From NCBI RefSeq assembly GCF_005144885.1, contig NZ_CP039690.1, positions 6,622,873 to 6,686,872 of the forward strand: a DNA stretch of 64,000 nt. Direction: 5' to 3'. The translations under genes and the position numbers were made by a program. The notes under the pieces were generated by a model. It ran no database searches. It saw only the letters and a program-made list of their open reading frames with translations, and had not been told where the DNA came from. This stretch comes from Phreatobacter stygius. GTDB taxonomy: Bacteria > Pseudomonadota > Alphaproteobacteria > Rhizobiales > Phreatobacteraceae. This document shows positions 1,899 to 47,638 of the stretch, one piece after another; the first letter of the stretch is position 1, and each line of letters starts with the position of its first letter.

Positions 1899-1918
1899 AG
1901 TATTTGAGCGTCAATACT
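1899..1918. promoter_or_regulatory. Candidate LysR operator between the divergent genes
   Basis: AGTATT (1899-1904) and AATACT (1913-1918) are perfect inverted arms around TGAGCGTC. The site lies about 70 bases upstream of the LysR start and 80 bases upstream of phnA, in an AT-rich gap, as expected for a LysR-type binding site with T-N11-A character. Confidence 0.45.
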
Positions 1919-1996
1919 CGAACAAAACGGATGATACTAGTTGCCGCACATGTCACCCGTGTGACGCCGGCAGCCAGGCTCGAGAGCATCAACCGC

Positions 1997-4566: not shown

Positions 4567-4584
4567 CCCGACAAGGATTTCGTG

Positions 4585-6135: not shown

Positions 6136-6158
6136 CCGGCGGGAAACTGGGACAGGCG

Positions 6159-7960: not shown

Positions 7961-9579
7961 GCACACCGGTTCTCGAGGTCCGCGACCTGGTCATCCGCTC
8001 CGCCGCGCGGGTGGTCGTCGACCGCCTGAGCTTCACCCTTCACGCCGGCCGCACGCTGGCGCTGATCGGCGAGTCCGGTTCGGGCAAGTCGTCCACCGCC
8101 GCCGCCATCATGGGCTTGCTTCCCGCGGGCCTGTCGATCGCGCCCGGCAGCCACGTCGCGCTTGATGGCGCGACGCTTCAGCCGGATGACGAGGCCGCCA
8201 TGCGGCCGTTGCGCGGCCGCGCCATGGCCATGGTCTTTCAGGACCCGATGAGCTGCCTCAATCCCACCATGGCGGTTGGCGGCCAGATCGACGAAGCCCT
8301 GCGCCGGTCTGGCTCGGCGGCAGCTTCGGCACGCCGCGTGCGCGCCGCGGCCCTGCTCGAAGCGGTCGAGCTGACAAACCCGGGCGCGGTCCTGCGGCGC
8401 TACCCGCACGAACTCTCCGGCGGCCAGCAGCAGCGCGTCATGCTGGCCATGGCGCTGGCGGCCGAGCCGAAACTGCTGATTGCCGACGAGCCGACCAGCG
8501 CGCTCGACGCCAGCGTCCAGGCCGACATCCTGGCGCTGCTGGAGCGGCTCCAGGCCAAATTCGGCATGGCCATGCTGTTCATCACCCATGACCTCGGCGC
8601 CGCGGCCCGCCTCGCCCATGACGTCATCGTCCTGCAGGCCGGCTCGGCCGTCGAGCAGGGGCCGGCACGGCGCGTGCTCGAACGCCCGGACCATCCCTAT
8701 GCGCGGAGCCTCGTCTCGGTCCGCCGCATGCTGGCGACGCCACCCGCGCCGGACCCGATCGATCGCCCGCTCGTCCTATCGGTCGATGATCTCCGCTTCG
8801 ACTATCCGGCGCGCCGGCTGTTCGACCGCCGCTTCCGCGCGCTCGACGGCGTGTCGCTGACGCTTGCGGCCGGCAAGACGCTCGGCATCCTCGGCGAATC
8901 CGGTTCGGGCAAGAGCACGCTGGCCGGCCTTGTCGCCGGGCTGGTCCAGGGCGCCTCCGGTGATATCAGGCTGTTCGGCACCTCGCTCGCGGCCCACGGT
9001 TTCCGCATGCCGCCGGCGCTCCGGCCGCGTTGCCAGATCGTCTTCCAGAACCCCTATGGCGCGCTCAATCCGCGGCTGACGGTGGAAGCCGCCATGCGCG
9101 AGCCGCTGCAACTGCTGCGTATCGGATCGGCGGCCGAACACCGCACCAGCATCATCGAGACGCTCGAAGCGGTCGGGCTCGGGGCGGAGCACCTCGGCTG
9201 TTATCCGCATCAGCTCTCGGGCGGCCAGCGCCAGCGGATCTGCATCGCCCGGGCGCTCCTGAGCAAGCCGGACCTGCTGGTCTGCGACGAGATCGTCTCG
9301 GCGCTCGACGCCACCATCCAGGTCCAGGTGCTGACCACGCTGAAGCGCCTGCAGCAGGAGCGCGGTTTCGCCATGCTGTTCATTGGCCATGACATCGAGG
9401 TGGTGCGCTGGGTCGCCGACGACATCGCGGTGATGCATCTGGGCCGGGTGGTCGACCACGGCCCGGCCGCGCGCGTCGTCAGCCAGCCGAGCGGCGCCTA
9501 TGCCCGGCACCTGATGGCGAGCGTCGCCTCCGGCAAGCCGGCGGCGACGCTACCGGATGCCGCGCCCGCCGCGGCCTGA
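7957..9579 (+). CDS. Fused ABC transporter ATPase (DppD-DppF type, two NBDs)
   Basis: 540 residues with two complete nucleotide-binding domains. Domain 1: Walker A GESGSGKS at 38-45, signature LSGGQQQR near 153-160, Walker B LLIADEP near 173-179. Domain 2: Walker A at 313-320, signature LSGGQRQR near 420-427, Walker B LLVCDE near 440-445. The fusion replaces the separate DppD and DppF subunits and powers import by the permeases upstream. It ends the operon; the next gene is convergent only 21 bases away. Domain 2 reads DEIVSALD instead of DEPTSALD, a change after the catalytic glutamate that should not abolish ATPase activity. Confidence 0.9.
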   Translation: MSTPVLEVRDLVIRSAARVVVDRLSFTLHAGRTLALIGESGSGKSSTAAAIMGLLPAGLSIAPGSHVALDGATLQPDDEAAMRPLRGRAMAMVFQDPMSCLNPTMAVGGQIDEALRRSGSAAASARRVRAAALLEAVELTNPGAVLRRYPHELSGGQQQRVMLAMALAAEPKLLIADEPTSALDASVQADILALLERLQAKFGMAMLFITHDLGAAARLAHDVIVLQAGSAVEQGPARRVLERPDHPYARSLVSVRRMLATPPAPDPIDRPLVLSVDDLRFDYPARRLFDRRFRALDGVSLTLAAGKTLGILGESGSGKSTLAGLVAGLVQGASGDIRLFGTSLAAHGFRMPPALRPRCQIVFQNPYGALNPRLTVEAAMREPLQLLRIGSAAEHRTSIIETLEAVGLGAEHLGCYPHQLSGGQRQRICIARALLSKPDLLVCDEIVSALDATIQVQVLTTLKRLQQERGFAMLFIGHDIEVVRWVADDIAVMHLGRVVDHGPAARVVSQPSGAYARHLMASVASGKPAATLPDAAPAAA

Positions 9580-9600
9580 TCCCGGCGGCAAGCTGGCGGC

Positions 9601-10437
9601 TCACGCCTCGCGGCTGCGTCCGGGATAATCCGGATCGGGCAGGAACGGGTAAGGCCCGGCAGCCTTCTCGACATAGGCGGTGTGGCTGATCAGCCCCGTC
9701 TCGACGCTCCAGTAATGCAGGTGGAAGGCCGCCGGTTCGAAATTGAACGCGGGCTGCGCACCCTCGCGCATGTCGAGCACCACCTGGTGGGCGACGCTCG
9801 GCGCGATCATCGCCAGAGTGCCGGCGAACATCGTCTGGATCGGCCGGTGATGATGGCCGCACAGAATGCGCACGACCTGGCTGTTGGCGCGAATGATCGC
9901 GGCGAGTTCATCGACACCTTCGACCAGCATGATGTTGTCCATGAGCTGCAGGCCGCAGGCAAAGGGCGGATGGTGCATGACGATGACGGTGGGTTTGGCC
10001 TTGTCCTCGGCCAGCCGTTCGGCGAGCCATTCCAGGCGCCGCGGGCAGAGCCGGCCGGCACCCGAACCGGGGATCACCGTGTCGAGGCCGATCAACCTGA
10101 GGGGCCCGAGGTCGGTGGCCCATTGGGCATATTTGTCGTGCTGGGCAAGGCCCGGAAAGTCGGCCAGCACGGCCTTCAGGTTCTCGCGCCGGTCGTGATT
10201 GCCGGGGATCAGCCAGACCGGCATGGGCAGCCGCGCCAGGAGGCGCTTCAGGTTCTCATATTCGGCGACGAGACCATTATCGGTCAGGTCGCCGGAAATC
10301 ACCACGACATCGGGGCGCGGGGCCAGCGCCAGCACCGCTTCGAGCGCCCTTTCGGTCAGGGCATTGGTCTCGGCGGTGCGATAGGCCGGCAGGCCGACAG
10401 GGCGGATGTGGAGATCGGTCAGATGGGCAATCAGCAT
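9601..10437 (-). CDS. GpdQ-like binuclear metallophosphodiesterase
   Basis: 278 residues. The metal ligands fall at D8, H10, D50, N80, H156, H195 and H197, with H81 as the active-site histidine. These are the very positions I recall for Enterobacter aerogenes glycerophosphodiesterase GpdQ, and the flanks (LIPGNHD, MHHPPF, CGHHH) agree. It should cleave glycerophosphodiesters or other small phosphodiesters in the cytoplasm; cyclic-nucleotide phosphodiesterase (CpdA-like) activity is the main alternative. The ATG at 10437 is used because the upstream extension contains heptamer-repeat sequence. It is convergent with the organophosphorus importer operon and probably part of the same scavenging function. 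A CTGTCAT half-box lies upstream. Confidence 0.82.
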   Translation of the reverse strand: MLIAHLTDLHIRPVGLPAYRTAETNALTERALEAVLALAPRPDVVVISGDLTDNGLVAEYENLKRLLARLPMPVWLIPGNHDRRENLKAVLADFPGLAQHDKYAQWATDLGPLRLIGLDTVIPGSGAGRLCPRRLEWLAERLAEDKAKPTVIVMHHPPFACGLQLMDNIMLVEGVDELAAIIRANSQVVRILCGHHHRPIQTMFAGTLAMIAPSVAHQVVLDMREGAQPAFNFEPAAFHLHYWSVETGLISHTAYVEKAAGPYPFLPDPDYPGRSREA

Positions 10438-10479
10438 GATGAGCTCGCAAGGGTGATGGCCGTCGCCTAGCCCTCGGTG

Positions 10480-10497
10480 ATGACAGAACGACGACGA
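10480..10497 (-). promoter_or_regulatory. Weak candidate Pho box upstream of the GpdQ-like gene
   Basis: On the minus strand TCGTCGT is followed after four bases by CTGTCAT. The second unit matches the PhoB repeat perfectly and the first matches four of seven, at the correct 11-base period. It lies about 45 bases upstream of the start at 10437. Suggestive only. Confidence 0.25.
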
Positions 10498-10504
10498 TGC
10501 GAGT

Positions 10505-10525
10505 GGCAAGTGGCAAGTGGCAAGT
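10505..10525. repeat. Heptamer tandem repeat (3 x GGCAAGT)
   Basis: Three perfect GGCAAGT copies are followed by a linker (10526 onward, GTGCCGCAAGCGCGTCGCGCG) and then a palindromic repeat. The same arrangement with GGCGAGT units recurs at 20631. Confidence 0.85.
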
Positions 10526-10548
10526 GTGCCGCAAGCGCGTCGCGCGAA

Positions 10549-10581
10549 AACCCTCACCCTAAGAAGACGCGGGCGAGGGTT
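10549..10581. repeat. Palindromic intergenic repeat (REP-like)
   Basis: An imperfect palindrome with outer arms AACCCTC and GAGGGTT, the same family as the elements at 20695, 26694, 33338 and 39421. It lies between the divergent GpdQ-like and SnoaL-like genes. Confidence 0.7.
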
Positions 10582-10676
10582 GGTGCGCCGCCCTCGCCGC
10601 GACTTGACCTCCGCGGTAATGGGAGCCCGCCGGCCGCCGCGTCATGATCCGTGCCTTCCGCCGTGAGGAGACGAGC

Positions 10677-11462
10677 ATGAGAACCACCGCCGAATTCGCC
10701 GATCGTTATGTCGCCATGTGGAACGAGACGGACGTCGGCCCGCGCCGAAACTTGGTCACCGAGATCTGGATGCCCGACGCCCATTTCACCGGCTCGCTCG
10801 CCGAAGGCCGTGGCCATGACCGGATCGATGCGGCGCTCGCCGCGGTCCAGCGGCGCTTTGCCGGCCATTCATTGCGGCTTGCCGGTCCCGCCGACGCCAT
10901 CGGCGCCTATCTGCGCCTGCCCTGGATCCTGGCGGAAGTCGACGGGTCGACCGTTGCGAGAGGGACCGATATCGGCACCCGGTCGCCGGACGGCAGGCTG
11001 GAGGCCGCCGTCAGCTTCTTCGACCTCCAGCCGCACAAGGCGGACGCCGGCAAGCCGGCCTGGTCGGCCGCGAGCTGGGCGGCGTTCTGGGCCAATCCGG
11101 ACCCGGAGGTGGCGCGCCGCCGCGTCCCCAATGTCGTCAGGCCGGATGTGACGGCCCATTGGCCGCACCGCAGCGCGCCGGTGCGCGGCGTCGACGACTA
11201 TCGCGACTATATCCTGCAGCTGCTGGCGCTGGTGCCGGATCTCCGCCTGACCATGGAGGAGCACGTCACCGAGGGCGACAGCACCTTCATCCGCTGGAGC
11301 GGCAAGGGAACCGGCGTCGAGGGCCCCTTCCATTGCACCGGCGTCGATCGCATCCGGGTCTCGCAAGGACGGGTCATCGAGAACCGGATCTATTCCGACC
11401 ATCTGATCTTCCAGGCCTTGGCCGCCAAGGTCGATGACGCCTGGGCGAGCCGCGCGGCCTGA
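10677..11462 (+). CDS. Tandem SnoaL-like (NTF2-fold) protein
   Basis: 261 residues made of two NTF2/SnoaL-like halves: residues about 1-120 (AEFADRYVAMWNE, then HFTGSLAEGRG) and about 140-255 (RPDVTAHWPH, GVDDYRDYILQLLALVPDLRL, VIENRIYSDHLI). The second half has the WSGKGTG strand usual for SnoaL-like hydratases and cyclases. The ATG at 10677 is chosen for its strong GTGAGGAG site. No catalytic reaction can be assigned. It precedes the TetR-linked cluster in the same direction but has no copy of that cluster's palindrome upstream, so it may not belong to the regulon. Confidence 0.72.
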   Translation: MRTTAEFADRYVAMWNETDVGPRRNLVTEIWMPDAHFTGSLAEGRGHDRIDAALAAVQRRFAGHSLRLAGPADAIGAYLRLPWILAEVDGSTVARGTDIGTRSPDGRLEAAVSFFDLQPHKADAGKPAWSAASWAAFWANPDPEVARRRVPNVVRPDVTAHWPHRSAPVRGVDDYRDYILQLLALVPDLRLTMEEHVTEGDSTFIRWSGKGTGVEGPFHCTGVDRIRVSQGRVIENRIYSDHLIFQALAAKVDDAWASRAA

Positions 11463-11522
11463 CGATGCCGTGGCGGGCCCCGGCGACTTCGGACGTCTTG
11501 GGCCCGTCATCCGCATTGACAT

Positions 11523-11539
11523 TGACTGACCGCCAGTCA
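11523..11539. promoter_or_regulatory. TetR-regulon operator, copy 1 (MHS transporter)
   Basis: TGACTGACCGCCAGTCA: perfect six-base inverted arms around five bases. The left arm overlaps a TTGACT that could serve as a -35 element. It lies about 60 bases before the transporter ATG. The same palindrome occurs upstream of three other units in this cluster. Confidence 0.75.
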
Positions 11540-11600
11540 TTATCATGAATGGAAACCGGCCTGTATCGGCGGACCAAGAATCAACAATGAGGAGAGGGGA

Positions 11601-12899
11601 ATGAGCGTCGCAATCCATTCGACAACCACCGTCGAGCAGCCGTCACGAACCCGCGCGATCGTCGCCGGATCGGTCGGCAATGTCCTGGAATGGTATGATT
11701 TCGCGGTCTACGCCTTCCTGGTGCCGGTCATTTCGTCCCTGTTCTTTCCGGCCAAGACCGAGCTCCTCTCGATCCTGTTCGCCTTTGCTGCATTCGGTGC
11801 CGGTTTCGTCACGCGTCCGCTCGGCGCGATCCTGTTCGGCATCTACGGCGATCGCGCCGGCCGGCGCGCAAGTCTCGCGGCGATATCGATCCTGATGGGG
11901 CTCGCGACGCTCACGATAGGACTGTTGCCGACCTATGAGACCGTCGGAGTCTGGGCAACCGTCGCTCTGGTCTGCGCCCGGCTCCTGCAAGGCCTTTCCG
12001 CGGGCGGAGAATATGGCGGCGCCATCCCCTTCCTGGTCGAATTCGCCGCGAAGGGGAAGCGAGGCGTCGTCGGCAGCTGGCAGCAGATCGGCAATGGCCT
12101 GGGGCTGCTGCTCGGCGCGCTCTTTGCTTATGCGCTCACCGCCAGCCTGTCCGCCGAGGACCTGAAGAACTGGGGATGGCGCATTCCCTTCATCCTCGGC
12201 GCCCTGCCCGCGGTCGTCGGCATCTATCTTCGCCTGCGCCTGCCCGACACGCCGGTCTTCGAGAAGCTCGAATTGCAATCCGCCAAGGCGGTCACCCCGC
12301 TTCGGGCGGTCGCCACCACCTATCGCAGCAACACGCTTCTGGTCTTCGCCATGGTCCTGCAGCTCGCCGTCGGCTTTTACATCGTCCTCACCTTCATGCC
12401 GACCTATCTCGGCCTGGTCAGCCGGCTGACCCGCGCCGATGCCCTGCTCATCACCAGCGCGGGCCTGGTGTCCTACATGGTCTTCTGCTTCATCGCCGGC
12501 GCACTGTCCGATCGCTGGGGCCGAAAGCCGCTCCTGCTGATCTCGAGCATCGGTTATGTCGTTCTCACCTACCCGCTGTTCCTGCTGGTCGCCTCGGGCC
12601 AATTCGCCCTGGCTCTGTTCGCCGAGATCGTCATGGCCGCCCTTCTCGGTTTCGCCGGCGGGCCGATCTCGGCGGCTTGCGCCGAGGCCGCCCCGGCCAA
12701 GGTCCGTTCGACCGTGGTGGCGATCGGCGTGGCCTTTTCGATCACCATCTTCGGCGGCTTCGCGCCGTTCCTCGGCACCTATCTGATTGCGACGTTCAAC
12801 ACGCCGCTGGCGCCGGCGTTCTACGCCATCGCGGCCGCCGCGATCACCTCCGTCGTCGTGTTCAGGATGCGTGAAACGGCCTTCGACGAGATGACCTGA
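11601..12899 (+). CDS. MFS transporter, metabolite:H+ symporter (MHS) family
   Basis: 432 residues with about twelve membrane segments and the hallmark start of the MHS family (GNVLEWYDFAVYAF). The loop after TM2 has GDRAGRRASL and the central repeat has DRWGRKPLL. MHS members import organic acids, osmolytes and aromatic acids with protons (ProP, KgtP, ShiA). The start has an excellent GGAGAGGGG site. It is the first gene of the TetR-linked cluster, directly behind operator copy 1, and is probably the entry route for the compound taken apart by the amidohydrolases downstream. The substrate is not predictable. Confidence 0.88.
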   Translation: MSVAIHSTTTVEQPSRTRAIVAGSVGNVLEWYDFAVYAFLVPVISSLFFPAKTELLSILFAFAAFGAGFVTRPLGAILFGIYGDRAGRRASLAAISILMGLATLTIGLLPTYETVGVWATVALVCARLLQGLSAGGEYGGAIPFLVEFAAKGKRGVVGSWQQIGNGLGLLLGALFAYALTASLSAEDLKNWGWRIPFILGALPAVVGIYLRLRLPDTPVFEKLELQSAKAVTPLRAVATTYRSNTLLVFAMVLQLAVGFYIVLTFMPTYLGLVSRLTRADALLITSAGLVSYMVFCFIAGALSDRWGRKPLLLISSIGYVVLTYPLFLLVASGQFALALFAEIVMAALLGFAGGPISAACAEAAPAKVRSTVVAIGVAFSITIFGGFAPFLGTYLIATFNTPLAPAFYAIAAAAITSVVVFRMRETAFDEMT

Positions 12900-12968
12900 G
12901 GCCCCGCCCGCGCCTCGCGGCCGGACCGGGCGACACGCCGCGGCTTCGGCGGATCCGGGCCGGTATTT

Positions 12969-12985
12969 TGACTGACGATCAGTCA
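12969..12985. promoter_or_regulatory. TetR-regulon operator, copy 2 (hydrolase-ligase-amidase unit)
   Basis: TGACTGACGATCAGTCA is perfect over seven bases on each side of CGA. A TTGACT at 12968-12973 overlaps the left arm, as in copies 1 and 3. It lies about 115 bases before the hydrolase ATG at 13101. Confidence 0.75.
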
Positions 12986-13100
12986 CACGACGAATGCCGC
13001 GACGGCCGACCAGGCCGCCGACGGCACCGCCATGCGCGGGCAACACCACACCCTCGCAAGCCCGCTGCATTCGGGCCTGGAGGCAACAAGGACACCGGCC

Positions 13101-14048
13101 ATGACCATGGAAACCAAGGCGGCATCGCCGAACATTCTCGACCTGTTCGCCGCCGCTTTCACCGAGATCCGCGCGATACGGAATTCCGAAATGGTCGAGA
13201 TGACCGACGACATGCGCCGGAGCGCGAAGGCAAGCACGGTCAGCCTGTCGCGCGGCGCGCTTCACTACGAACTGGTCGGCCCGGACGATGGCCCGGTCGC
13301 GGTTCTGCTCTCGGGCGCGACATTGCCCATGTGGGTCTGGGATCCCGTCATGGCGCCGCTCGCCGCCGTCGGGTTCCGGGTGCTGCGCTTCAACTATTAC
13401 GGCCGTGGCTGTTCCGATTGTCCGTTCGATCCGCAGGATCCGGCCTTTTTCAACGCCCAGATCACCGAACTCACCGAAGCGCTTGCGCTCCGGCCGCCTT
13501 TTCACATCGTCTCGATCGCCTTCGGTGCTCTCGTCGGCCTGCTCTACGCCGAACAGGCCCCCGCCAGGGTCGCGTCTCTGACGCTCATTGCCCCCGACGG
13601 CATGGGCACCAATGTCTCGCCGGGGCTCGGCCTGACGCTCACGCCCGGGCTCGGCGACTATCTGTTCGACCTCGTCGGCAACGACCTCCTGCTGCAGCGC
13701 ATGCCGACCTATTCCGACGACCGCGCCGTGGTCGCCGATCTCACCCGGCGCATCAGCGAGTGCTTTGCGGTCAAGGGTTACAAGCGTTCGGTCCTGTCCT
13801 CGATCCGCGAGATGCCGATCCATACGGCCGAAGCCTCCTATCGCGCGGTCGCCGCCAACCGGACCAGGACCCTGGTCCTGTGGGGGCGTCGCGACGGCAC
13901 CACGCCGGTCGCGATCATGGATCGCATCAGGCCGGTCATGCCCGATGCCGAATACCGCGTGCTCGAGGCCGCGCACCTGCCGCCCTACGAGGATCCGGAC
14001 CTCTTCCTCAGCGCCCTGCTGCCATTTCTGCGGTCGGCCGTCGGCTGA
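13101..14048 (+). CDS. Alpha/beta-hydrolase-fold protein with alanine at the nucleophile position
   Basis: 315 residues with a normal fold: oxyanion region LLSGATLPMWVWDP, RFNYYGRGCSD loop, acid D265 (LWGRRDG) and histidine H292 (AAHLPPYEDPD). The nucleophile elbow, usually G-x-S-x-G, reads S138-I-A140-F-G142-A, so the serine is replaced by alanine. It therefore cannot work as an ordinary serine esterase. Possible roles are a nucleophile-independent reaction such as a lyase or decarboxylase, or a ligand-binding role. The ATG at 13101 is favoured by AAGGA eight bases upstream. It heads a unit with the acyl-CoA synthetase and the amidase behind operator copy 2. Confidence 0.82.
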   Translation: MTMETKAASPNILDLFAAAFTEIRAIRNSEMVEMTDDMRRSAKASTVSLSRGALHYELVGPDDGPVAVLLSGATLPMWVWDPVMAPLAAVGFRVLRFNYYGRGCSDCPFDPQDPAFFNAQITELTEALALRPPFHIVSIAFGALVGLLYAEQAPARVASLTLIAPDGMGTNVSPGLGLTLTPGLGDYLFDLVGNDLLLQRMPTYSDDRAVVADLTRRISECFAVKGYKRSVLSSIREMPIHTAEASYRAVAANRTRTLVLWGRRDGTTPVAIMDRIRPVMPDAEYRVLEAAHLPPYEDPDLFLSALLPFLRSAVG

Positions 14049-14106
14049 GGTCGCCGGCCCACGGCCCCGTCGCCCGGCATTCCAGAACAACCTTCAAGAG
14101 GAACCC

Positions 14107-15756
14107 ATGTTTGGACTCATGCAGGAGCAGCCGCTCCTCATCTCGTCGCTGATCGAACATGCCGCCGAGGCGCATGCCGATCGACAGGTCGTGTCGCGCG
14201 ACGCCGAGGGGCGCATCCGTGCCTTCGGCTATCGCGAGCTGGCGGCGCGCGCGCGGGCACTGGCGCGGGCCTTGATCGAACTCGGCGTCAGACCTGGCGA
14301 CCGGGTCGCGACACTGGCCTGGAACGACCACCGCCACATGGAGCTCTATTATGCCGTCTCCGGCATCGGCGCGGTGATCCATACCGTCAACCCGCGCCTG
14401 TTCCCGCAGCAGATCGGCTTCATTCTGAACCATGCGGAGAGCGTCTGCCTGTTCTTCGATCCGGGCTTCGGTGCCATGGTCGCTGAACTGGCCCCTGGCC
14501 TTTCCGGTCTTCGCCATGTCGTCGAGATGGCCGACGACGCCACCGTCCCGCCGCTGGGCGACCATGTCGTCCGGCACAGCTATGAGCGGCTGCTGGCGGG
14601 CCATGCCGGCGAATTCGCCTGGCCGCAGCTCGACGACCGCGCCGCTTCCGGGCTCTGCTACACCTCCGGGACGACAGGCGACCCCAAGGGCGTCCTCTAT
14701 GCGCACCGCTCGACGGTTCTGCATGCGCTGAGCGCAGGCGGACCCGGCGGTTTCGACGTGACCCGGGATGACGTCGTGCTCGCGGTGGTACCGCTGTTCC
14801 ACGTCAACGCCTGGGGCCTGCCTTATGTCTGTGCGCTGAGCGGCGCGACGCTCGTGCTCCCGGGCCCGAGGCTCGACGGCGCCAGCATCTACGAGCTGAT
14901 GCGCAGCCAGCTCTGCACCGTGGCCTTCGGCGTCCCGACGGTCTGGATGGGACTGCTCGATCATGTCAGCAACAATCCGCAGCTCCGCCCGCGCGACGAG
15001 CTCAGGCTGCAGCGCATCGTCATCGGCGGCGCCGCGGCTCCCGCCGCGCTCATCGACGGCCTTCAGGACCTTCTGGGCTGCGACGTCATTCTCGCCTGGG
15101 GCATGACCGAACTCAGCCCGCTCGGCAGCATCGGCCGCGTCCCACGCAAGGGCGAGCTGGCCGATGAGGACGAAAGGCGCCGGCGCCTCGCCAAGCAGGG
15201 ACGCGCCGTGTTCGGCGTCACGATGAAGATCGTCGATGCCGACGGGCGCCCCCTGCCCCGCGATGGCCGCGCCGCCGGCCGGCTGCTGGTTCGCGGCCCG
15301 TGGGTCACGTCCGGCTACTTCCGCCACGACGAGCCGTTGCTCGACGCCGATGGCTTCTTCGAGACCGGCGACATCGCGACGATCGATCCTTCCGGTGATC
15401 TCGAAATCACCGATCGCATGAAGGACGTGATCAAGTCCGGCGGCGAATGGATTTCCTCCATCGAGCTCGAAGGCGTGGCGGCGAGCCATCCGGCCGTCGC
15501 CGAGGCCGCCGTCATCGCCATGGCTCATCCGAAATGGCAGGAGCGGCCACTGCTGATCGTCCGGCTGCGCGCGGGCATGGCCGCCTCGGCGAGCGACATT
15601 CTCGGCCATATGGCGCCGCGCGTCGCCAGGTGGTGGCTGCCCGACGACATCGCCTTCGTCGACGACATCCCGCACACCGCGACCGGCAAGATCCAGAAAA
15701 CCAAGCTGCGCGAGCGGTTTGCACGACACCAGGCCCTGCAGCCCGAGCCGAGCTGA
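14107..15756 (+). CDS. Acyl-CoA synthetase (AMP-forming, fatty/aryl acid type)
   Basis: 549 residues of the ANL superfamily. It has the P-loop [11 protein letters not shown] (185-195), WGMTELSP (A5), [20 protein letters not shown] (A7/A8) and the C-terminal lysine in TATGKIQK. It activates a carboxylic acid to its AMP ester and then to CoA thioester. The [23 protein letters not shown] insert resembles medium- or long-chain synthetases, but the acid is unknown. An AGAGGA site precedes the ATG, and the hydrolase ends 58 bases earlier. In context it probably activates the acid released by the amidohydrolases for beta-oxidation-like breakdown. Confidence 0.88.
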
Positions 15757-15798
15757 CGGGCCGGGCCACGCACCCACAAGCGAGAGAGGATGACACCC

Positions 15799-17199
15799 AT
15801 GACCACATCGTCAACCGGCGCCTTCGACAGCGTCGCGGATATCATCGCGGCGGTCCGGTCAGGCCGGACGTCGCCGCGCGACGTCGTCGACGCCGCCATT
15901 CAGCGGGCACGCGCGGCGAGCCCGCTGAATGCCTTCATCTCGATCGCCGATGCGATCCCCGACGCGTTGATCGCGGCGGCCGCGGACAAGCCCCTGGCCG
16001 GCATTCCGATCGCGGTGAAGGACAATACCGATGCCGTCGACTTCCCCTGCACCGGCGGCACGCCGGCGCTCCGCGACTGGCGGCCGGCGACCGACGCAAC
16101 CGCCGTGGCGCGCCTGAAGGCGGCCGGCGCCATCGTCATCGGCAAGGCCAATCTGCACGAACTGGCCGCCGGCATGACTTCGAACAACCCGACCTTCGGC
16201 CCCGTGCTCAACCCCTATGATCGCCGCCTGATCGCCGGTGGCAGCAGTGGCGGCAGCGCCGCGGCGGTTGCCGCCGGCATCGTGCCGGCGAGCCTCGGTT
16301 CGGACACCGCCGGCTCGAACCGGGTTCCCGCTTCGCTTTGCGGCTGTGTCGGGTTTCGTCCCACCGTCGGTCGTTATCCGACCGATGGCGTGATCCCGCT
16401 ATCGCTGACCCGCGACACCATCGGGATTTTCGCCCACACGGTCAGCGATGCCCAGCACCTCGACGGCATCGTCGCCGGGCGTCCGGCGGCAGCGAAACGG
16501 TCGGGCCTGAAGGGCCGCCGGCTCGGCGTGCCGCGCCCCTATTTCTACGAAGCGCTCGACAGCGAGACACAGGCCGTCATCGAGACGGCACTCGGGCGGC
16601 TGAGCGAGGCCGGAGCGGTCCTGGTGGACACCGAGGTCAGGGACATCGGCGCGCTGGTCGGCCCGATCACGCTCGGCCTGATCTTCTACGAGACCCTGCG
16701 CGACATTTCGGTCTACCTGGCCCGCAGCCGCTGCCCGGTCCGGGCCTGGGAAATCGTCGACCAGATGGCAAGCACGGTGGAGCGCGGCTGGCTCGAGGCC
16801 GAGATCTGGGGCGAGAGCCTGCCGACCAGCGCCTATAACGACATTCTCGCGCGCGGCCGCCCGGCGGTTCAGCAAGCTTATCGCGACTGCTTTGCCAGGC
16901 ACGATCTCGACGCACTGGTCTTGCCGACGACCGCCATCCCGGCCCGGCCGGCGGGCCAGGACGAGACGGTGAAACTCAACGGCCGGGACGTGCCGACGCT
17001 CGCGACCTATATGCGCAACACCGACCCGACTTCGGTCGCCGGCATGCCCAGCATTTCCGTCCCGGCCGGCCTGACCGTTTCCGGCCTGCCTGTCGGCCTG
17101 ATGTTCGACGGCCTTGCTGGCAGCGACGGCGACCTGCTCGACATCGCCGCCGGCTTCCAGGCCCTGGCGCCGAGATTGCCGCGCCCGACCGCAAGCTGA
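15799..17199 (+). CDS. Amidase signature family enzyme
   Basis: About 466 residues with the complete amidase triad: lysine K74 (IAVKDNTD), cis-serine near S149 (GGSSGGS) and nucleophile S173 (SDTAGSNRVPAS). It hydrolyses an amide to acid and ammonia or amine. The RVPASLCGCVGFRPTVGRYP region resembles indoleacetamide and mandelamide hydrolases, but the substrate is open. The ATG at 15799 is chosen because GAGAGG lies nine bases upstream; the ATG at 15790 abuts that site. It follows the acyl-CoA synthetase by 42 bases and is probably cotranscribed with it. Confidence 0.88.
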   Translation: MTTSSTGAFDSVADIIAAVRSGRTSPRDVVDAAIQRARAASPLNAFISIADAIPDALIAAAADKPLAGIPIAVKDNTDAVDFPCTGGTPALRDWRPATDATAVARLKAAGAIVIGKANLHELAAGMTSNNPTFGPVLNPYDRRLIAGGSSGGSAAAVAAGIVPASLGSDTAGSNRVPASLCGCVGFRPTVGRYPTDGVIPLSLTRDTIGIFAHTVSDAQHLDGIVAGRPAAAKRSGLKGRRLGVPRPYFYEALDSETQAVIETALGRLSEAGAVLVDTEVRDIGALVGPITLGLIFYETLRDISVYLARSRCPVRAWEIVDQMASTVERGWLEAEIWGESLPTSAYNDILARGRPAVQQAYRDCFARHDLDALVLPTTAIPARPAGQDETVKLNGRDVPTLATYMRNTDPTSVAGMPSISVPAGLTVSGLPVGLMFDGLAGSDGDLLDIAAGFQALAPRLPRPTAS

Positions 17200-17213
17200 C
17201 GGCTCGACGCGCC

Positions 17214-17232
17214 GCCCTCTTGTCCCGAGGGC
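17214..17232 (+). terminator. Possible terminator after the amidase gene
   Basis: GCCCTC-TTGTCCC-GAGGGC forms a six-base stem 15 bases after the amidase stop. There is no T-run, so this is weak. Confidence 0.3.
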
Positions 17233-17339
17233 CGCACGAAACAGCGCGTCCGCACCATGCCATCCACCGCGGCCACACCGGAATGCCGCCTTCCCACGGA
17301 GGTACCGCCAGCTCGCTGATCCAGACCCACGCGCATTAT

Positions 17340-17356
17340 TGACTGGCTACCAGTCA
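17340..17356. promoter_or_regulatory. TetR-regulon operator, copy 3 (creatininase-family gene)
   Basis: TGACTGGCTACCAGTCA is perfect over seven bases on each side of CTA. It overlaps a TTGACT at 17339-17344 and lies about 95 bases before the ATG at 17449. Confidence 0.75.
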
Positions 17357-17448
17357 TATCGAAGCAATCATGTCGCGCGGATGGCCGCGCGGCAATCCAG
17401 TCCTGTCGAGATGTCCCCTCGAGAGGCAAACCCTGAGGGAATTGGTCC

Positions 17449-18231
17449 ATGTCTGTCTTTGAACTGGCGAAAATGACGGCACCCGAGGTGCGCAAGGCGA
17501 TCGACGACGGACATGACACCGTCGTCTGTCCGTTCGGCTCGCTCGAACAGCACTCCGCTCACCTGCCGATCGGCACCGACGCCATGCTGGGCGACGCATT
17601 CGGCCGGCGCCTGGCCGATCAACTCGACGCCTTTCTCGTGCCGACCGTGAGCGTCGGCTGCGCCGAGCACCACATGCCCTTCGCGGGCACCATGACGGTG
17701 AGCCACGAAACCATTCAGCGCATGGCCGGTGAATATGCCCGATGCCTCGCACGCCACGGCTTCAAGCAGATCATCCTGCTCGGCACCCATGGCGGCAACT
17801 TCAAGCCGCTCGACGATGCCGCCAAGGACTGCGCCGACATCGAAGGCGCCACCGTCATTGCCCCCATGAAGGATTTCGATCTTGATGTTCTGGACCCTTG
17901 TCATGCCGTTTCGGCGAAATTCGGCATTGGTAAGGGAGAAAGCGGCGGTCATGCTGGCGAATGGGAGACCTCTATCATGCTGGTTCTCACGCCCGACCTG
18001 GTGCACATGGATCGAACGGTAGAAGGTTTCGTCGGCAACATGTCGGATGCCGTGAAGCGGTTGCTCCAGGACCGGCAAGGCATCGACGTGGTGACCCATG
18101 GCACCGGCATTCTCGGCGATCCGCGCCGGGCCGATGCCGAGCGCGGCAAGCTCCATTTCGACGCGCTCGCCGGCGCGATGATGCGCGGTGTCCGCCGGGA
18201 ATGGCCGGCTGGCCGGCCGGCGCCGAAATAG
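17449..18231 (+). CDS. Creatininase-family amidohydrolase
   Basis: 260 residues, normal for the family. Metal-binding residues are visible: E33 and H35 (GSLEQHSAHLP), D44 (GTDAMLG), H114 (GTHGGN) and the H168/E171/E173 group (GHAGEWETS). The family opens cyclic amides or cleaves formamides (creatinine, formylaminopyrimidine and similar) with two metal ions. It has its own operator copy and a GAGGGA ribosome site. Its presence with an amidase and an M20 amidohydrolase suggests stepwise amide cleavage of one compound. True creatinine hydrolysis is unproven. Confidence 0.88.
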   Translation: MSVFELAKMTAPEVRKAIDDGHDTVVCPFGSLEQHSAHLPIGTDAMLGDAFGRRLADQLDAFLVPTVSVGCAEHHMPFAGTMTVSHETIQRMAGEYARCLARHGFKQIILLGTHGGNFKPLDDAAKDCADIEGATVIAPMKDFDLDVLDPCHAVSAKFGIGKGESGGHAGEWETSIMLVLTPDLVHMDRTVEGFVGNMSDAVKRLLQDRQGIDVVTHGTGILGDPRRADAERGKLHFDALAGAMMRGVRREWPAGRPAPK

Positions 18232-18245
18232 GCGCCGCGACCGGC

Positions 18246-18305
18246 CAGGACACTTGGAAGCAGGACACTTGGAAGCAGGACATCTGGAAGCCGGACATCT
18301 GGGGC
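18246..18305. repeat. 15-bp tandem repeat (four copies)
   Basis: Four consecutive 15-base units starting CAGGACACTTGGAAG: two identical, a third with two changes and a fourth more diverged. They begin 14 bases after the creatininase stop and end at a hairpin. In one frame the unit would read QDTWK, but no gene fits there. Confidence 0.85.
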
Positions 18306-18329
18306 CGGGGATGCCCCCCGGCCGCCTTT
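18303..18329 (+). terminator. Intrinsic terminator-like hairpin after the creatininase gene
   Basis: GGCCGGGG (18303-18310) pairs with CCCCGGCC (18316-18323) over a five-base loop, followed by GCCTTT. It would separate this transcript from the tetR gene. Confidence 0.5.
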
Positions 18330-18409
18330 GAGGGCGGCGGGCCCGGAAAGATTCGGCCGCCGGCCTGCCCGCATCGAACGAACATGCGACAAGCCGTCGA
18401 CTTTCGGTT

Positions 18410-18418
18410 AGTCAGTCG
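18410..18418. promoter_or_regulatory. Possible TetR half-site upstream of tetR
   Basis: TAGTCAGTCG contains one good arm of the cluster palindrome (TCAGTC), with no matching second arm at the proper distance. It lies about 45 bases before the preferred tetR start, so weak autoregulation is possible. Confidence 0.3.
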
Positions 18419-18462
18419 AATGTCTTCGCGGTGGCGTGTCCGCCGTGGTGCGGGATCGGAGA

Positions 18463-19143
18463 ATGCGGGTGGTCGACAAGCAGATGGCCTTGAAGCGCAA
18501 GCGCGTGGCGAAACCGCAAGAGGAGCGGCTCGACGACCTGCTCGCCGCCGCCGCCGCGATCTTCGGCGAACAGGGTGTCACCGGCGCCAAAGTCGAGGAC
18601 ATCACCGAAAAGGCCGGCGTTTCCAAGGGCACGTTCTACCTCTACTTCACGTCCAAGGAGCATGCCGCCGACATGCTCTGGCAACGCTATATCGATCGCT
18701 ACCTGAGGATCGGCGAGGACATCCTCGCGCGCGACCACGGCTCGCATCTGGACAGGCTGGTCGCCGTCTTCGAGGCACTGACCGAATATGTTCTGGCCAA
18801 TGCCGGCCTGCACCGCACCGTGTTCTACGCCACGCATAGCGAAGAGCGGCGGGCGATGACGCAGAAGTTCATATCCGCCATCGCGGCTGCGGTGCGGCAG
18901 GGCATTGCGGCGGGCGAGCTTCATGCCGACGAGCCCGAACTCATGGTCGAGGTCCTCTACCATGGCATCGGCACGTCGCTGCACGACGCCATCGCCGGCG
19001 GGCAACCGCTGCGGGCCGACGCGCGCATCCGGACGGCCGGCGAACTGGCGCGCCTGACATTCTCGCCGCAGTCCCTGCCCCGAACAGCCTTCGCGCCGAA
19101 AAGCGCCGCGCCGGCAGGAAAGAAGGTCCGGCGGAACGCCTGA
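18463..19143 (+). CDS. TetR/AcrR-family transcriptional regulator
   Basis: About 226 residues from the ATG at 18463; GTG 18436 and ATG 18484 are in-frame alternatives. The N-terminal DNA-binding domain is typical (LLAAAAAIFGEQGVTGAKVEDITEKAGVSKGTFYLYF), followed by a C-terminal ligand domain ending in a basic tail. It sits within the catabolic cluster, and one palindrome of the size expected for a TetR dimer is repeated before the transporter, hydrolase, creatininase and M20 genes. It is therefore the likely repressor of all four units, released by the substrate or a CoA ester. That link is inference. Confidence 0.88.
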   Translation: MRVVDKQMALKRKRVAKPQEERLDDLLAAAAAIFGEQGVTGAKVEDITEKAGVSKGTFYLYFTSKEHAADMLWQRYIDRYLRIGEDILARDHGSHLDRLVAVFEALTEYVLANAGLHRTVFYATHSEERRAMTQKFISAIAAAVRQGIAAGELHADEPELMVEVLYHGIGTSLHDAIAGGQPLRADARIRTAGELARLTFSPQSLPRTAFAPKSAAPAGKKVRRNA

Positions 19144-19307
19144 TGGCGCCGCCTCACGCGTGTGCCGCGCTCCATCGGCGGCCCCACTCATTCGCTCGCG
19201 CCGCTACCTGCCGATGCGGCTTCGACGGGCCCCAGCGCGAGGCGGCGCGGCCAGCGAACCACCCGGCTCGGGCAAGCCGCGCAATGACCGCTCGTCAAAT
19301 CATCTAT

Positions 19308-19328
19308 TGACTGACTGACGGTCACTCA
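19308..19328. promoter_or_regulatory. TetR-regulon operator, copy 4, doubled (M20 amidohydrolase)
   Basis: Two overlapping versions of the palindrome, offset by four bases: TGACTGACTGACGGTCA (19308-19324) and TGACTGACGGTCACTCA (19312-19328), each with one mismatch to the perfect arms. A TTGACT at 19307 overlaps the left arm as in the other copies, with TAAAAC 17 bases further as a possible -10. Confidence 0.65.
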
Positions 19329-19425
19329 TTAAAACTCACGCATGGGAGCGAAGCCGCGCGCGATCTGCCATCCCGCAGCGTGTCCGTCCCGACCGCCAAT
19401 CAACAAACCTCCGGGAGGACGTCCC

Positions 19426-20598
19426 ATGTCGGATCTCGAAATGCTGAAACGGCAGGCCTGCGAACGGGTCGATGCCGTCGCCGACCGGCTGATCGCGGTG
19501 AGCCGCGAGATTCACGCCAACCCCGAACTGGCCTTTCAGGAGCACAGGGCCTGCGCCCTGCTTGCCTCCATCGCCGAGGCGGCCGGCATGGCGGTCGAAC
19601 GCCGGGCCTATGGCCTCCAGACCGCCTTTGCCGCCGAATTCGGCAATGGCGAGGGGCCGGTGATCGCGGTTCTGTCGGAATATGACGCCTTGCCCGGGAT
19701 CGGCCATGGCTGCGGCCACAATATCATCGCCGCCACTGGCCTGGGCGCCGCGCTGGCCCTGAAGGGAATGCCGGCCGGACTGCCCGGCAAGGTGCGCTAT
19801 ATCGGCACGCCTGCCGAGGAACGGGGCTGCGGCAAGGAGATCATGGCGCGCAACGGCGCCTTCGACGGCCTGGACGCGGCCATGATGGTGCATCCCGCCT
19901 GGGTCAACGCCAAGGCGTTCCGGACACTGTGCCTCGGCGAAGTCCATGTCGACTATATCGGCCAGTCCGGTCACGCGGCGCTGGCGCCCGAGCAAGCCCG
20001 GAACGCCCTCGACGCCGTCGTCATGTCCTACCAGGCGATCGCCAATCTGCGCCAACACCTGAAGCGGGGCGAACATGTTCACGGCGTCATCACCGATGGC
20101 GGCGATGTCCCCAACGTCTTCACGGTCTCGACCAGGGCGCACTATTTTGCCCGGGCCGCCACGATAGAGGACCTCGCGGTACTCAAGCGGCGTGTCGATG
20201 CCTGCCTGCAGGCCGGCGCGACGGCGACCGGCTGCGAAGCACGGATCGCCTGGTCGGATGCGGACTATCAGCAGATGAAGGTCAACCTGCCGCTCGCCGA
20301 TGCCTTCGAAGCCAATGCCAGCCGGCTCGGTCGGGAGTTTACCGACTACCTTCAATTGCCGATCGGCGGCGCCGACATGGGCAATGTCAGCCAGCGCGTG
20401 CCGGTGCTGCACGCCCTGATCTCCTGCGCGCCTGCTGACGTGATCATCCACACGCCGGAATTCACCCGCTGGGCCGGCTCCGAGCAGGGCGACCGGGCCG
20501 TCGTCGACGGCGCGAAGGCGCTCGCCATGACCGCGATCGACATGCTGGTCGATGGCGCCTTCCGGTCACGCGTGGCGACGGCTCAGGCCACGCTCTGA
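19426..20598 (+). CDS. M20 family amidohydrolase (AbgB/M20D-like)
   Basis: 390 residues. The metal-site region LSEYDALPGIGHGCGHN (about 84-99), the catalytic PAEERGCGK and the dimerisation domain with GQSGHAA are present, as in aminobenzoyl-glutamate hydrolase AbgB and related N-acyl-amino-acid hydrolases. It cleaves an amide between an acid and an amino acid or amine. The ATG at 19426 has a strong GGGAGGA site; the longer frame upstream overlaps the operator region. It forms its own unit behind the doubled operator copy 4 and is probably the third amide-cleaving step of the TetR-linked pathway. Confidence 0.87.
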   Translation: MSDLEMLKRQACERVDAVADRLIAVSREIHANPELAFQEHRACALLASIAEAAGMAVERRAYGLQTAFAAEFGNGEGPVIAVLSEYDALPGIGHGCGHNIIAATGLGAALALKGMPAGLPGKVRYIGTPAEERGCGKEIMARNGAFDGLDAAMMVHPAWVNAKAFRTLCLGEVHVDYIGQSGHAALAPEQARNALDAVVMSYQAIANLRQHLKRGEHVHGVITDGGDVPNVFTVSTRAHYFARAATIEDLAVLKRRVDACLQAGATATGCEARIAWSDADYQQMKVNLPLADAFEANASRLGREFTDYLQLPIGGADMGNVSQRVPVLHALISCAPADVIIHTPEFTRWAGSEQGDRAVVDGAKALAMTAIDMLVDGAFRSRVATAQATL

Positions 20599-20974: not shown

Positions 20975-22120
20975 ATGGCCGGCATCATTCTCGACCGGAT
21001 CGAGAAGTCATTTGGCGCGACCCGCGTCCTCGGCGGCGTCAGCCTGTCTTTCGCGGCCGGCGAGTTCGTCTCGCTGGTCGGTCCGTCCGGCTGCGGCAAG
21101 ACCACGCTCTTGCGCATCATCGCCGGGCTCGAGACCGCCGACCAGGGCCGGGTGTCGATCGGCGGCGCCGATGTCACCGGCCGGCGGGCCGCCGACCGCG
21201 ACGTCGCCATGGTGTTCCAGAACTACGCACTCTATCCGCATATGACGGTGGAGCAGAACATCGCGCTGCCGCTGGTCATGCGAAGGCTTCGCGCGCTGGA
21301 GCGGGCGCCTCTCCTCGGCCGCCTGGTGCCCGGCACCGATCAGCGCCGCCAGGCGATCCTCGCCGAGGTGCGCGAGGCCGCGCGACTCTTGTCGATCGGC
21401 CATCTGATGCAGCGCCGGCCCGGGCAATTGTCCGGCGGCCAGCGCCAGCGTGTCGCCCTTGGCCGCGCCATCGTGCGCCATCCGCAAGCCTTCCTGATGG
21501 ACGAGCCACTGTCGAACCTCGACGCGGCGCTGCGCCACGACATGCGCAAGGAACTGGTCGAGCTGCACCGCCGGGTCGGCGTGACCACTGTCTATGTCAC
21601 CCACGACCAGGCCGAGGCGATGACCATGTCGGACCGCGTCGCGGTCATGCTCGGCGGCAAGGTGCTGCAATTCGGCACGCCGAGAGAAGTCTATGACCAG
21701 CCGGCGACCATCGATGTCGCGGGCTTCATCGGCTCGCCGCGCATCAATGTCCTGCCCGCCGAAACCGACGGGCGCGGCGCGCTCGCCTTTGCCGGGCGCC
21801 GCACCGGTGCCGCGGTCGATCAGGCGAGAGCCAAGGTCAGGCTCGGCATTCGCCCGGAACATCTCAGCCTGCAGGCCGACGGCATCCCCTGCACCATCCG
21901 CCATGTCGAATTTCTCGGCGCCGAGGTGCTGGTCTATGTCCGCGAGGCGACGACCGGCGTCGACCTGATTGCCCGGCTGACGCCGGAGGCCTGGGCCAAG
22001 GTCGATCGAAACCGCGCGGTTGGCCTCGCCTTCGCTGCCGCCAGGCTGCTCGCTTTCGACGGCGACGGCCTGCGGCTGGCGATCGGTATCGACGAACCGG
22101 CGGTGAAAGCCGTTGTCTGA
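20975..22120 (+). CDS. ABC transporter ATPase, MalK/UgpC type
   Basis: 381 residues: nucleotide-binding domain with Walker A GPSGCGKTT, Q-loop VFQNYALYPHM, signature LSGGQRQR and Walker B FLMDEPLSNLD, then a C-terminal regulatory OB-fold domain (LGIRPEHLSL). An insertion of about 25 residues after QNIALPLVMRR lengthens the helical subdomain. This type energises sugar and glycerol-3-phosphate importers. It is first in a five-gene operon behind a Pho box, which argues for a phosphorylated or phosphate-linked substrate such as glycerol-3-phosphate or glycerophosphodiesters. Confidence 0.88.
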   Translation: MAGIILDRIEKSFGATRVLGGVSLSFAAGEFVSLVGPSGCGKTTLLRIIAGLETADQGRVSIGGADVTGRRAADRDVAMVFQNYALYPHMTVEQNIALPLVMRRLRALERAPLLGRLVPGTDQRRQAILAEVREAARLLSIGHLMQRRPGQLSGGQRQRVALGRAIVRHPQAFLMDEPLSNLDAALRHDMRKELVELHRRVGVTTVYVTHDQAEAMTMSDRVAVMLGGKVLQFGTPREVYDQPATIDVAGFIGSPRINVLPAETDGRGALAFAGRRTGAAVDQARAKVRLGIRPEHLSLQADGIPCTIRHVEFLGAEVLVYVREATTGVDLIARLTPEAWAKVDRNRAVGLAFAAARLLAFDGDGLRLAIGIDEPAVKAVV

Positions 22121-23045
22121 TCTCGCCCTCTCCCACGCCGCCGCCCTGCCCGCTCCGGCCGCCGACCGCGCCGGCACCGGCGAGGCGCTTGCCGCCTGGC
22201 TGCTGTCGCTGCCGGCGATCATCGCCTTCGTCGTGATGCTGCTGCTCCCGACCGCCGCCGTGGTCGCCATTGCCTTCACCGATTACGAGCTCGGCGCCCG
22301 CTCGCTGAGGTTCGTCGGCCTGGCCAATTTCGCCGAGCTGCTCGAAGACCGCGGCTTCGTCACCTCGTTCCGCAACACCGCCTTCTTCGTTGCCGTCACC
22401 ACGCCGGTCTCGCTGTTCGGCGGGCTTGGCCTCGCCATGCTGATCGAGGGCGGCACGCGCGGCCGCGCCGTGTTCCGGGCGGTGTTCTTCCTGCCGGTGG
22501 TGTCGCTGATGGTCGCGATGGCGACCGCCTTCCAATACATGTTCCACCCGACCATCGGGCCGGTGAACGCGGTGCTGCGCACGCTTGGCCTGGTCGGGCC
22601 GAACTGGCTCGGGTCCTCCGACAGCGTCATGTGGACGCTCGCGATCATCGGCATCTGGGAGCAGATCGGCTTCAACATGGTGCTGTTCCTGGCCGGGCTG
22701 ACCGCCATCCCGCGCGATCTCTATGCCGCGGCCGAAATCGACGGCGTCCGGTCGGCGTGGTCGCGCTTCGTGACCGTCACCTGGCCGCTGCTCGGGCCGA
22801 CCACGCTGTTCGTCCTGACCATCACCATGATCCGCTCGCTCCGGGTCTTCGAGATCGTCGCGACGCTGACCCAGGGCGGGCCGAACAAGGCCTCCGAAGT
22901 GCTGCTCTACACCATGTATAGCGAGGCCTTCACCTTCTTCCGCATGGGCTATTCGGCGGCCATCACCGTGGTTTTTCTCATCGCCGTGGTGGTGCTGATG
23001 CTGCTGCAGACGCGCCTCCTCGACCGCCGCGTCCATTACGGGTGA
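22113..23045 (+). CDS. ABC transporter permease, UgpA/MalF type
   Basis: 310 residues starting with TTG inside the end of the ATPase gene (eight-base overlap), an arrangement that suggests translational coupling. Six membrane segments and the EAA loop (AAEIDGVRSAWSRFVTVTWPLLGP) mark it as the first inner-membrane subunit of a carbohydrate-type importer. It pairs with the permease encoded next. Confidence 0.88.
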   Translation: MSDLALSHAAALPAPAADRAGTGEALAAWLLSLPAIIAFVVMLLLPTAAVVAIAFTDYELGARSLRFVGLANFAELLEDRGFVTSFRNTAFFVAVTTPVSLFGGLGLAMLIEGGTRGRAVFRAVFFLPVVSLMVAMATAFQYMFHPTIGPVNAVLRTLGLVGPNWLGSSDSVMWTLAIIGIWEQIGFNMVLFLAGLTAIPRDLYAAAEIDGVRSAWSRFVTVTWPLLGPTTLFVLTITMIRSLRVFEIVATLTQGGPNKASEVLLYTMYSEAFTFFRMGYSAAITVVFLIAVVVLMLLQTRLLDRRVHYG

Positions 23046-23052
23046 ACAGGTC

Positions 23053-23904: not shown

Positions 23905-23972
23905 GCTCCACGACACCAAGACAAGACCGGCAAGCATCCGCCCGCCGTCTCAGCCGCCAGGAGCCCTGACAG

Positions 23973-25250: not shown

Positions 25251-25329
25251 CCGCTTTTGCCTTGCCGCCAGGGCCGGTGGGGCGGCCCTAAGCGGACCCT
25301 TGCCTTGATCGACCCCTCTGGAGGACGTG

Positions 25330-29377: not shown

Positions 29378-29385
29378 GGATCATC

Positions 29386-30234: not shown

Positions 30235-30237
30235 GCC

Positions 30238-31056: not shown

Positions 31057-31118
31057 TCCTGCCGGGATCTGCCTTAAAGCGAGCCCTGCAAGCAGATAAG
31101 TGGAACCGAGCGACGCCC

Positions 31119-43800: not shown

Positions 43801-43821
43801 ACTACGAAACCCGTTCCGATC

Positions 43822-46195: not shown

Positions 46196-47638
<1,443 letters not shown>

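Follow-up and report, generated by a model that had tools for sequence, protein, structure and literature searches.

The question raised by this locus is whether a short palindrome, TGACTG-N5-CAGTCA, recurring ahead of genes for a transporter and several amide hydrolases in Phreatobacter stygius, marks a set of genes under one local regulator and, if so, what these genes might accomplish together. The window, that is, the whole stretch of 64,000 nucleotides analysed here, corresponds to positions 6,622,873-6,686,872 of the source genome; the cluster in question (Table 1) starts with operator 1 and a gene for a metabolite:H+ symporter (MHS), continues with operator 2 and the genes for an alpha/beta-fold protein, an acyl-coenzyme A (CoA) synthetase and an amidase, then with operator 3, a creatininase-family gene and tetR, and ends with operator 4 and an M20 amidohydrolase gene. 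We consider it likely that a local TetR repressor acting on four promoters is combined here with a pathway degrading an amide-linked carboxylic acid. The two parts of this reading have their own strength: judging from sequence, a TetR-controlled local regulon is very likely, and the amide-degradation pathway is plausible.

An earlier note on this DNA had described four copies of one palindrome. A pattern scan of the window found the palindrome exact at three positions (operators 1 to 3), and the observation is thus confirmed with a correction on the fourth copy, which is imperfect. The source genome, a single contig of 7,354,671 bases, holds three exact sites, all of them in the cluster, against 0.2 expected from base composition. 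When up to two mismatches were permitted, the genome had 81 sites and the reversed control pattern 83, so that no excess was left; with three mismatches allowed, the window had 21 sites against a shuffle mean of 15.5, a number reached by 12 of 100 shuffles. Since this last count is near chance, information resides only in matches with zero or one mismatch, and we rejected any meaning of the three-mismatch ones. The word having been chosen post hoc, all palindromes with six-base arms and gaps of 0-10 were compared between the window and 200 first-order Markov simulations. One might object that unrelated catabolic genes simply lie side by side here and that the palindromes have no shared function, and the bare copy number, which is not extreme, leaves room for this objection (36/200 simulations hold some palindrome with at least three copies within 6 kb); once copies were weighted by expected word frequency, however, the observed value was 3.6e-13, the null minimum 1.0e-9, and none of the 200 simulations reached the former.

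Table 1. Features of the cluster, in window coordinates; distances run from the end of each operator to the preferred start codon of the gene.
Feature	Coordinates	Strand	Remarks
Sigma-70-like promoter of the MHS gene	11516-11543	+	-35 TTGACA, 16-base spacer, -10 CATTAT; mostly conserved in the relative
Operator 1	11523-11539	.	TGACTGACCGCCAGTCA; MHS start codon after 61 bases
MHS-type major facilitator superfamily (MFS) transporter	11601-12899	+	TIGR00883 351.7 bits (cut-off 443.45); Sugar_tr, MFS_1
Operator 2	12969-12985	.	TGACTGACGATCAGTCA; alpha/beta start codon after 115 bases
Alpha/beta-hydrolase-fold protein	13101-14048	+	Ala in place of the nucleophile (SIAFG); positions of the acid and the histidine kept
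Acyl-CoA synthetase	14107-15756	+	nearest models PRK07008, PRK06018; solved chain 6ihk (AMP-binding domain protein)
Amidase-signature enzyme	15790-17199	+	best model indoleacetamide hydrolase; KDN, GGSSGGSA, DTAGSNRVP motifs
Operator 3	17340-17356	.	TGACTGGCTACCAGTCA; creatininase-family start codon after 92 bases
Creatininase-family amidohydrolase	17449-18231	+	motifs EQHSAHLPIGTD, HGGN, GGHAGEWET
Block just 5' of tetR	18398-18431	+	34 bases, identical in the relative; begins with an operator-like site with 3 mismatches
TetR-family regulator	18436-19143	+	PF00440 E 5.4e-14; solved TetR relatives; presumed repressor
Operator 4	19308-19328	.	TGACTGACTGACGGTCACTCA, imperfect, double-register; M20 start codon after 97 bases
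M20 amidohydrolase	19426-20598	+	frame open from 19342; start 19426 preferred from comparison with the relative

Two one-mismatch sites exist elsewhere in the source genome, near frames whose names were read from translations. One lies inside a thiolase-like reading frame; the other, TGACCGTAGGGCAGTCA (L022 3034-3050; G000 6333433), is located where a malic-enzyme-like frame has its stop codon, with an EAL-domain-like frame 41 bases further on. It is possible that the latter site represents a distant regulon member; the relative described below had no counterpart of it among its own sites with one mismatch.

The comparison with other genomes is in agreement with a shared function of the sites. 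One close relative was found, the metagenome-assembled contig JAFKKV010000045.1 (titled Hyphomicrobiales bacterium; L007), which, from the match coordinates, we take to be the same as genome G279 and count once. It carries all eight genes in unchanged order and with 81-97% identity, a SnoaL-like gene ahead of the MHS gene being included in this number, and all four sites at the same places. The earlier note had proposed to look for the palindrome near orthologues in related genomes and had expected the orthologues to co-occur outside this genome. Both were observed in this relative, and a Streptomyces plasmid groups genes of similar functions. According to the promoter alignment, 16/17, 17/17, 15/17 and 20/21 bases of operators 1 to 4 are retained; the arms TGACTG and CAGTCA of sites 1-3 are unchanged and all their differences fall in the spacer (one at operator 1, two at operator 3), and the single change of site 4 affects an arm of its second register. 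The columns outside the operators agree in 78/126, 82/192, 73/232 and 116/267 cases, counts into which gap columns enter; at the creatininase promoter the bases of the relative were used from the operator on, 140 of the 232 outside columns being without counterpart and 73 of the remaining 92 agreeing. The relative's genome has three exact sites, confined to the cluster, and three more one-mismatch sites elsewhere, against two for the reversed-pattern control.

Homologues of the cluster proteins are rare in the genome samples, which overlap, cover part of the available species and are counted here with the source genome included. The TetR protein was found at E 1e-25 in 2/297 genomes of the order (the source and G279) and the creatininase-family protein at 1e-45 in 2/397 genomes of the order (the same two) and 1/398 of the phylum; ten other genomes of the genus listed in that 397-genome sample had no creatininase match. 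The fact that both creatininase genomes belong to one genus is a further point for a chance assembly of the gene set, but the location of the sites at promoters and their conservation speak against it, as does the finding of a similar set of functions in Streptomyces, and we judge a chance assembly to be very improbable indeed. Five plasmid neighbourhoods, each around a single homologue and from Rhodococcus fascians, Shinella, Burkholderia anthina, Methylobacterium currus and R. erythropolis, did not hold the set, and a scan of viral contigs gave one M20 protein, 33% identical and unaccompanied by further cluster genes. In a genome of the class sample (L037 1641-9039), an M20 gene 54% identical to that of the cluster and a Ser-type alpha/beta gene lie within 8 kb, about 5 kb apart, the genes between them being SDR- (short-chain dehydrogenase/reductase) and MFS-like from their translations. 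We rejected this locus as a module, as the intervening genes are unrelated, the alpha/beta protein is of the Ser type and no other cluster gene was matched at E 1e-6.

Which regulator might bind the palindrome? The TetR gene that the earlier note had placed inside the cluster is borne out by its PF00440 match, and the solved-structure relatives of its product include 3vuq, which we take to be SbtR. The homology searches with this protein used a shorter start, at 18490, and its structure prediction from the single sequence was too poor for use (mean predicted local distance difference test, pLDDT, 45.5). In the promoter scan, operator 1 sits between the -35 and -10 elements of the MHS promoter and its last two bases are the first two of the -10 element; it thus fills the gap between the two elements, a position as of a repressor site, and this overlap is suggestive of repressor-type placement. 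A T precedes all four operators, giving TTGACT, which resembles a -35 hexamer. According to a different explanation, the palindrome would be bound by some other regulator and the embedded TetR would control something else; this would suit the finding that tetR is preceded by a three-mismatch site only (18398-18414), but none of the eight cluster genes examined, tetR apart, codes for a regulator, the exact sites are confined to the cluster in both genomes, as for a local regulator, and TGACTG is an established TetR half-site (PMC4948773). We therefore regard binding by another regulator as improbable and retain the local TetR, whose own gene may possibly be autoregulated, either at the 18398-18431 block or by read-through from operator 3.

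As to the enzymes, the amide hydrolases, the acyl-CoA synthetase and the symporter announced in the earlier note are supported by profile and domain matches; the one departure from the described gene content is that the alpha/beta protein lacks the nucleophile. The ligase stays below the curated cut-off of the 3-(methylthio)propionyl-CoA ligase model NF005426 (733.8 bits against 822) and has 6ihk/6ijb and 1ult as nearest solved chains. The amidase scores 499.9 bits with the indoleacetamide hydrolase model NF005688 (curated cut-off 532), and its model matches also include allophanate hydrolase and AtzE. The creatininase-family protein is below the cut-offs of both creatininase (TIGR04448, 105.7 against 235 bits) and MftE (TIGR03964, 128.1 against 172 bits) and belongs to the wider family PF02633 (202.3 against 31.3). 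The M20 protein exceeds the curated cut-off of TIGR01891 (197.2 against 153.75 bits); its nearest solved chains are an Xaa-Arg dipeptidase and HmrA, with weaker matches to YxeP, IAA-amino acid hydrolase and aminobenzoyl-glutamate protein. Active-site motifs are present in the M20, amidase and creatininase-family proteins; those given in Table 1 hold the catalytic residues of the amidase and the metal site of the creatininase-family protein. Since the amidase and the creatininase-family protein fall below the curated cut-offs, no substrate can be read from their families.

The alpha/beta protein, whose start codon was set by comparison with the relative, had been read in the earlier note as the hydrolase of a hydrolase-ligase-amidase unit, a description that does not hold as it stands, as an alanine occupies the place of the catalytic serine. 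The nucleophile elbow is SIAFG in the window and in the relative and AMAFG in the Streptomyces protein, the acid and histidine positions being kept in the window and Streptomyces proteins; a serine is found at this position in 6/6 related proteins from three other plasmids and in 7/7 homologues from the class sample, in which 8/162 genomes, the source included, had a homologue at E 1e-40. A search of an order sample (n=170) returned the source alone. The three Ala proteins come together with support (97/94) in a tree of 17 rows; E. coli RutD stands outside their group, on a long branch that makes its position unsure. Because of the alanine the protein is not an ordinary serine hydrolase, and its reaction may differ from that of typical hydrolases altogether; an enzyme of this fold from tomato, the methylketone enzyme, reportedly has decarboxylase activity without the serine. 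The query was one codon short in the plasmid search, the nucleophile alignment and the structure model (the relative's protein being two codons long in the nucleophile alignment), and the tree, the RutD alignment and the class-sample searches used the start given in Table 1. The structure prediction, from a two-row alignment, was too poor for use (mean pLDDT 35.8).

The alanine opens the way to a different view of the substrate, in which the regulon is real and the compound is a cyclic amide or ureide: the creatininase-family enzyme would open the ring, a carbamoyl group or an amino acid would be removed by the M20 enzyme or the amidase, and the loss of a carbamate or enamine would be accelerated by the alpha/beta protein, as proposed for the Rut pyrimidine pathway. 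Creatininases act on a cyclic amide, and allophanate hydrolase and AtzE are among the model scores of the amidase. In addition, E. coli RutD (K-12 record) shares the alanine, VVGHALGALVG aligning with IVSIAFGALVG of the window. RutD is modelled as accelerating a spontaneous carbamate step and was found to be dispensable for growth on uridine (PMC8113886). However, no RutA, RutB or RutC model was matched by the eight cluster proteins scanned, RutD is only weakly similar (32% identity in 100 residues, E 3e-4) and is placed elsewhere in the tree, albeit on a long branch; moreover, the M20 protein is nearest to dipeptidases (HmrA, YxeP and IAA-amino acid hydrolase being weaker) and the Streptomyces set does without a creatininase. 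A cyclic substrate thus appears unlikely to us, though less so than the two alternatives discussed above, and we continue with the amide-linked carboxylic acid.

Streptomyces sp. NBC_01727 (NZ_CP109164.1) ranked first among 72,556 plasmid records for both the M20 (57.3%) and the alpha/beta protein (36.7%). The annotation of positions 583111-591905 reads, in order, MFS, TetR, CoA ligase, amidase, alpha/beta hydrolase and amidohydrolase, with identities to the window of 32.8% for MFS, 31.9% for the ligase and 31.7% for the amidase. In wider searches the ligase had matches of up to 55.7% among those listed; among plasmid records the highest for the amidase was 44.6% (best 25 of 176, several of the best named indoleacetamide hydrolase; all 176 below 60%), and the creatininase-family protein did not exceed 40.5% (best 20 of 410). 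As the ligase and the amidase of the window have nearer kin elsewhere, different superfamily members may have been recruited to the same job, and similar functions seem, from these comparisons, to have been assembled twice, in a proteobacterium and in Streptomyces. This set is the strongest evidence for placing transporter, ligase, amidase, alpha/beta and M20 proteins in one pathway. The creatininase-family enzyme, absent from it, is not a fixed part, and we rejected the idea that it forms the core of the pathway. We also tentatively advance a bolder proposal, to which we attach some probability without favouring it: the Ala-type clade, its nucleophile lost, would have acquired a new function as a lyase, as a decarboxylase or in a step like that of RutD, and would work together with an M20 amide hydrolase in an undescribed pathway. 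This pathway would have arisen twice, in a proteobacterium and independently in an actinomycete, and in the former it would be run by one TetR with TGACTG-N5-CAGTCA.

Before the Streptomyces tetR, two near-direct repeats, TTGAACAG[CT]TG, were observed (L015 10426-10472); these are a possible operator of that TetR.

Several observations weigh against a TetR-controlled amide pathway. The fourth site consists of two overlapping registers with one mismatch in each; a promoter in the right direction was detected by the scan at one of the four sites only (operator 1), and the promoter-like matches in the region, two against a chance mean of 1.1, are hardly an excess. To these must be added the weak site before tetR, and the fact that the regulon is seen in a single relative, so that its conservation amounts to one comparison. 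The M20 protein, at 1e-75, was found in the source alone in both the order (1/279) and phylum (1/279) samples, G279 not being listed in the former. In the Streptomyces set, pairwise BLAST at E 1e-3 gave no match for TetR, creatininase and SnoaL, the first two being gaps that count here, and the 31-kb stretch contained no TGACTG-N5-CAGTCA by pattern scan and no shared operator in a repeat search. Finally, the alpha/beta protein departs from the G-x-Nuc-x-G pattern, in which Ser, Cys or Asp is expected, and the enzyme families, as judged from their profiles, give no substrate for the cluster.

Taking these points into account, we propose the following scenario. The TetR protein would bind TGACTG-N5-CAGTCA at the four promoters and repress them until it is released by an inducer, for which the compound taken up, or an acyl-CoA or other early product, is the probable candidate. 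The derepressed units would supply the proton symporter and three amide-bond hydrolases (M20, amidase and creatininase family); the CoA ligase would act on the freed acid, and the alpha/beta protein would probably handle a labile intermediate, either hydrolysing an enamine or carbamate in the manner of RutD or carrying out a decarboxylation, the joint outcome being the breakdown of an amide-linked carboxylic acid. The import, amide cleavage and CoA activation put forward in the earlier note, whose order is conjectural, are partly supported by the motifs and the Streptomyces set; its hydrolase, being of the Ala type, and its creatininase, not being fixed, are the less certain parts. With its TetR, the operator predicted for it and four promoters in one self-contained regulon, the cluster lends itself to a search for the substrate by an operator-driven reporter in an amide screen, and the linked alpha/beta protein without a nucleophile is a testable case of an old fold with a new reaction.

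The surroundings of the cluster are heterogeneous. The SnoaL-like protein (10644-11462), just before operator 1, has no operator ahead of it, is 81% identical at the same place in the relative and may be either a pathway member or a bystander. Further upstream (1904-10557), the regulon is adjoined by a pair of genes for type I phosphodiesterase/nucleotide pyrophosphatases, together with a peptide-type ATP-binding cassette (ABC) transporter and a calcineurin-like phosphoesterase; these look like a separate organophosphodiester uptake locus. Downstream, a sugar-type ABC transporter (20975-26625) with tandem solute-binding genes (23973-25250 and 25327-26625, the second from translation only) is followed by a row of ABC permease, ABC ATPase and PhoU-domain genes (28397-31832), probably a phosphate uptake locus. 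Two sigma-54 response regulators are found at 42433-48787 with a pair of sensor kinases, of which one carries an NtrY N-terminal domain, and are probably nitrogen regulators; purine breakdown genes, namely a Urate_ox_N-type urate oxidase adjoining an XdhC-type gene, lie at 57446-59635.

A remaining question concerns the relation of this cluster to known systems. In line with the earlier note, no named pathway with this gene set was recognised in searches of open-licence papers on the gene set, amide-alkaloid clusters, the half-site with TetR and RutD. The Rut pathway of E. coli (RutR, RutA-G), whose regulator RutR is of the TetR type, resembles the cluster in having a transporter, an amide hydrolase and an alpha/beta-fold protein with alanine at the nucleophile position; the cluster differs in its several amide hydrolases and its CoA ligase, and its alpha/beta protein is placed away from RutD in the tree. 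The IaaH family provides the best curated model of the amidase, yet the score is below its cut-off. In the Streptomyces sp. NBC_01727 set, MFS, TetR, CoA ligase, amidase, Ala-type alpha/beta and M20 proteins are shared, whereas the creatininase and the palindrome are not. As for the site itself, SbtR (TTHA0167) of Thermus thermophilus, likewise of the TetR family, selects TGACTGGCCAGTCA in vitro (PMC4948773), and its consensus is given as TGACYrnnyRGTCA in PMC7022988. The SbtR site TGACTG-GC-CAGTCA and the cluster site have identical six-base arms (PMC4948773), but its spacer in SbtR is of two bases instead of five, which sets the cluster sites outside the SbtR regulon and does not imply orthology; by analogy, the SbtR half-site supports the kind of site rather than membership in that regulon. 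The piperine cluster of Rhodococcus ruber No. 14 (PMC12753220) likewise proceeds from amide cleavage to a CoA-type breakdown of the acid; it differs in comprising 48 genes and in relying on PipM, of subtype VIII of the amidohydrolase superfamily, and not on M20, amidase or creatininase enzymes. Seen beside these systems, the cluster is a further TetR-controlled catabolic cluster, that is, one of a known kind, and the alpha/beta protein is its most interesting part.

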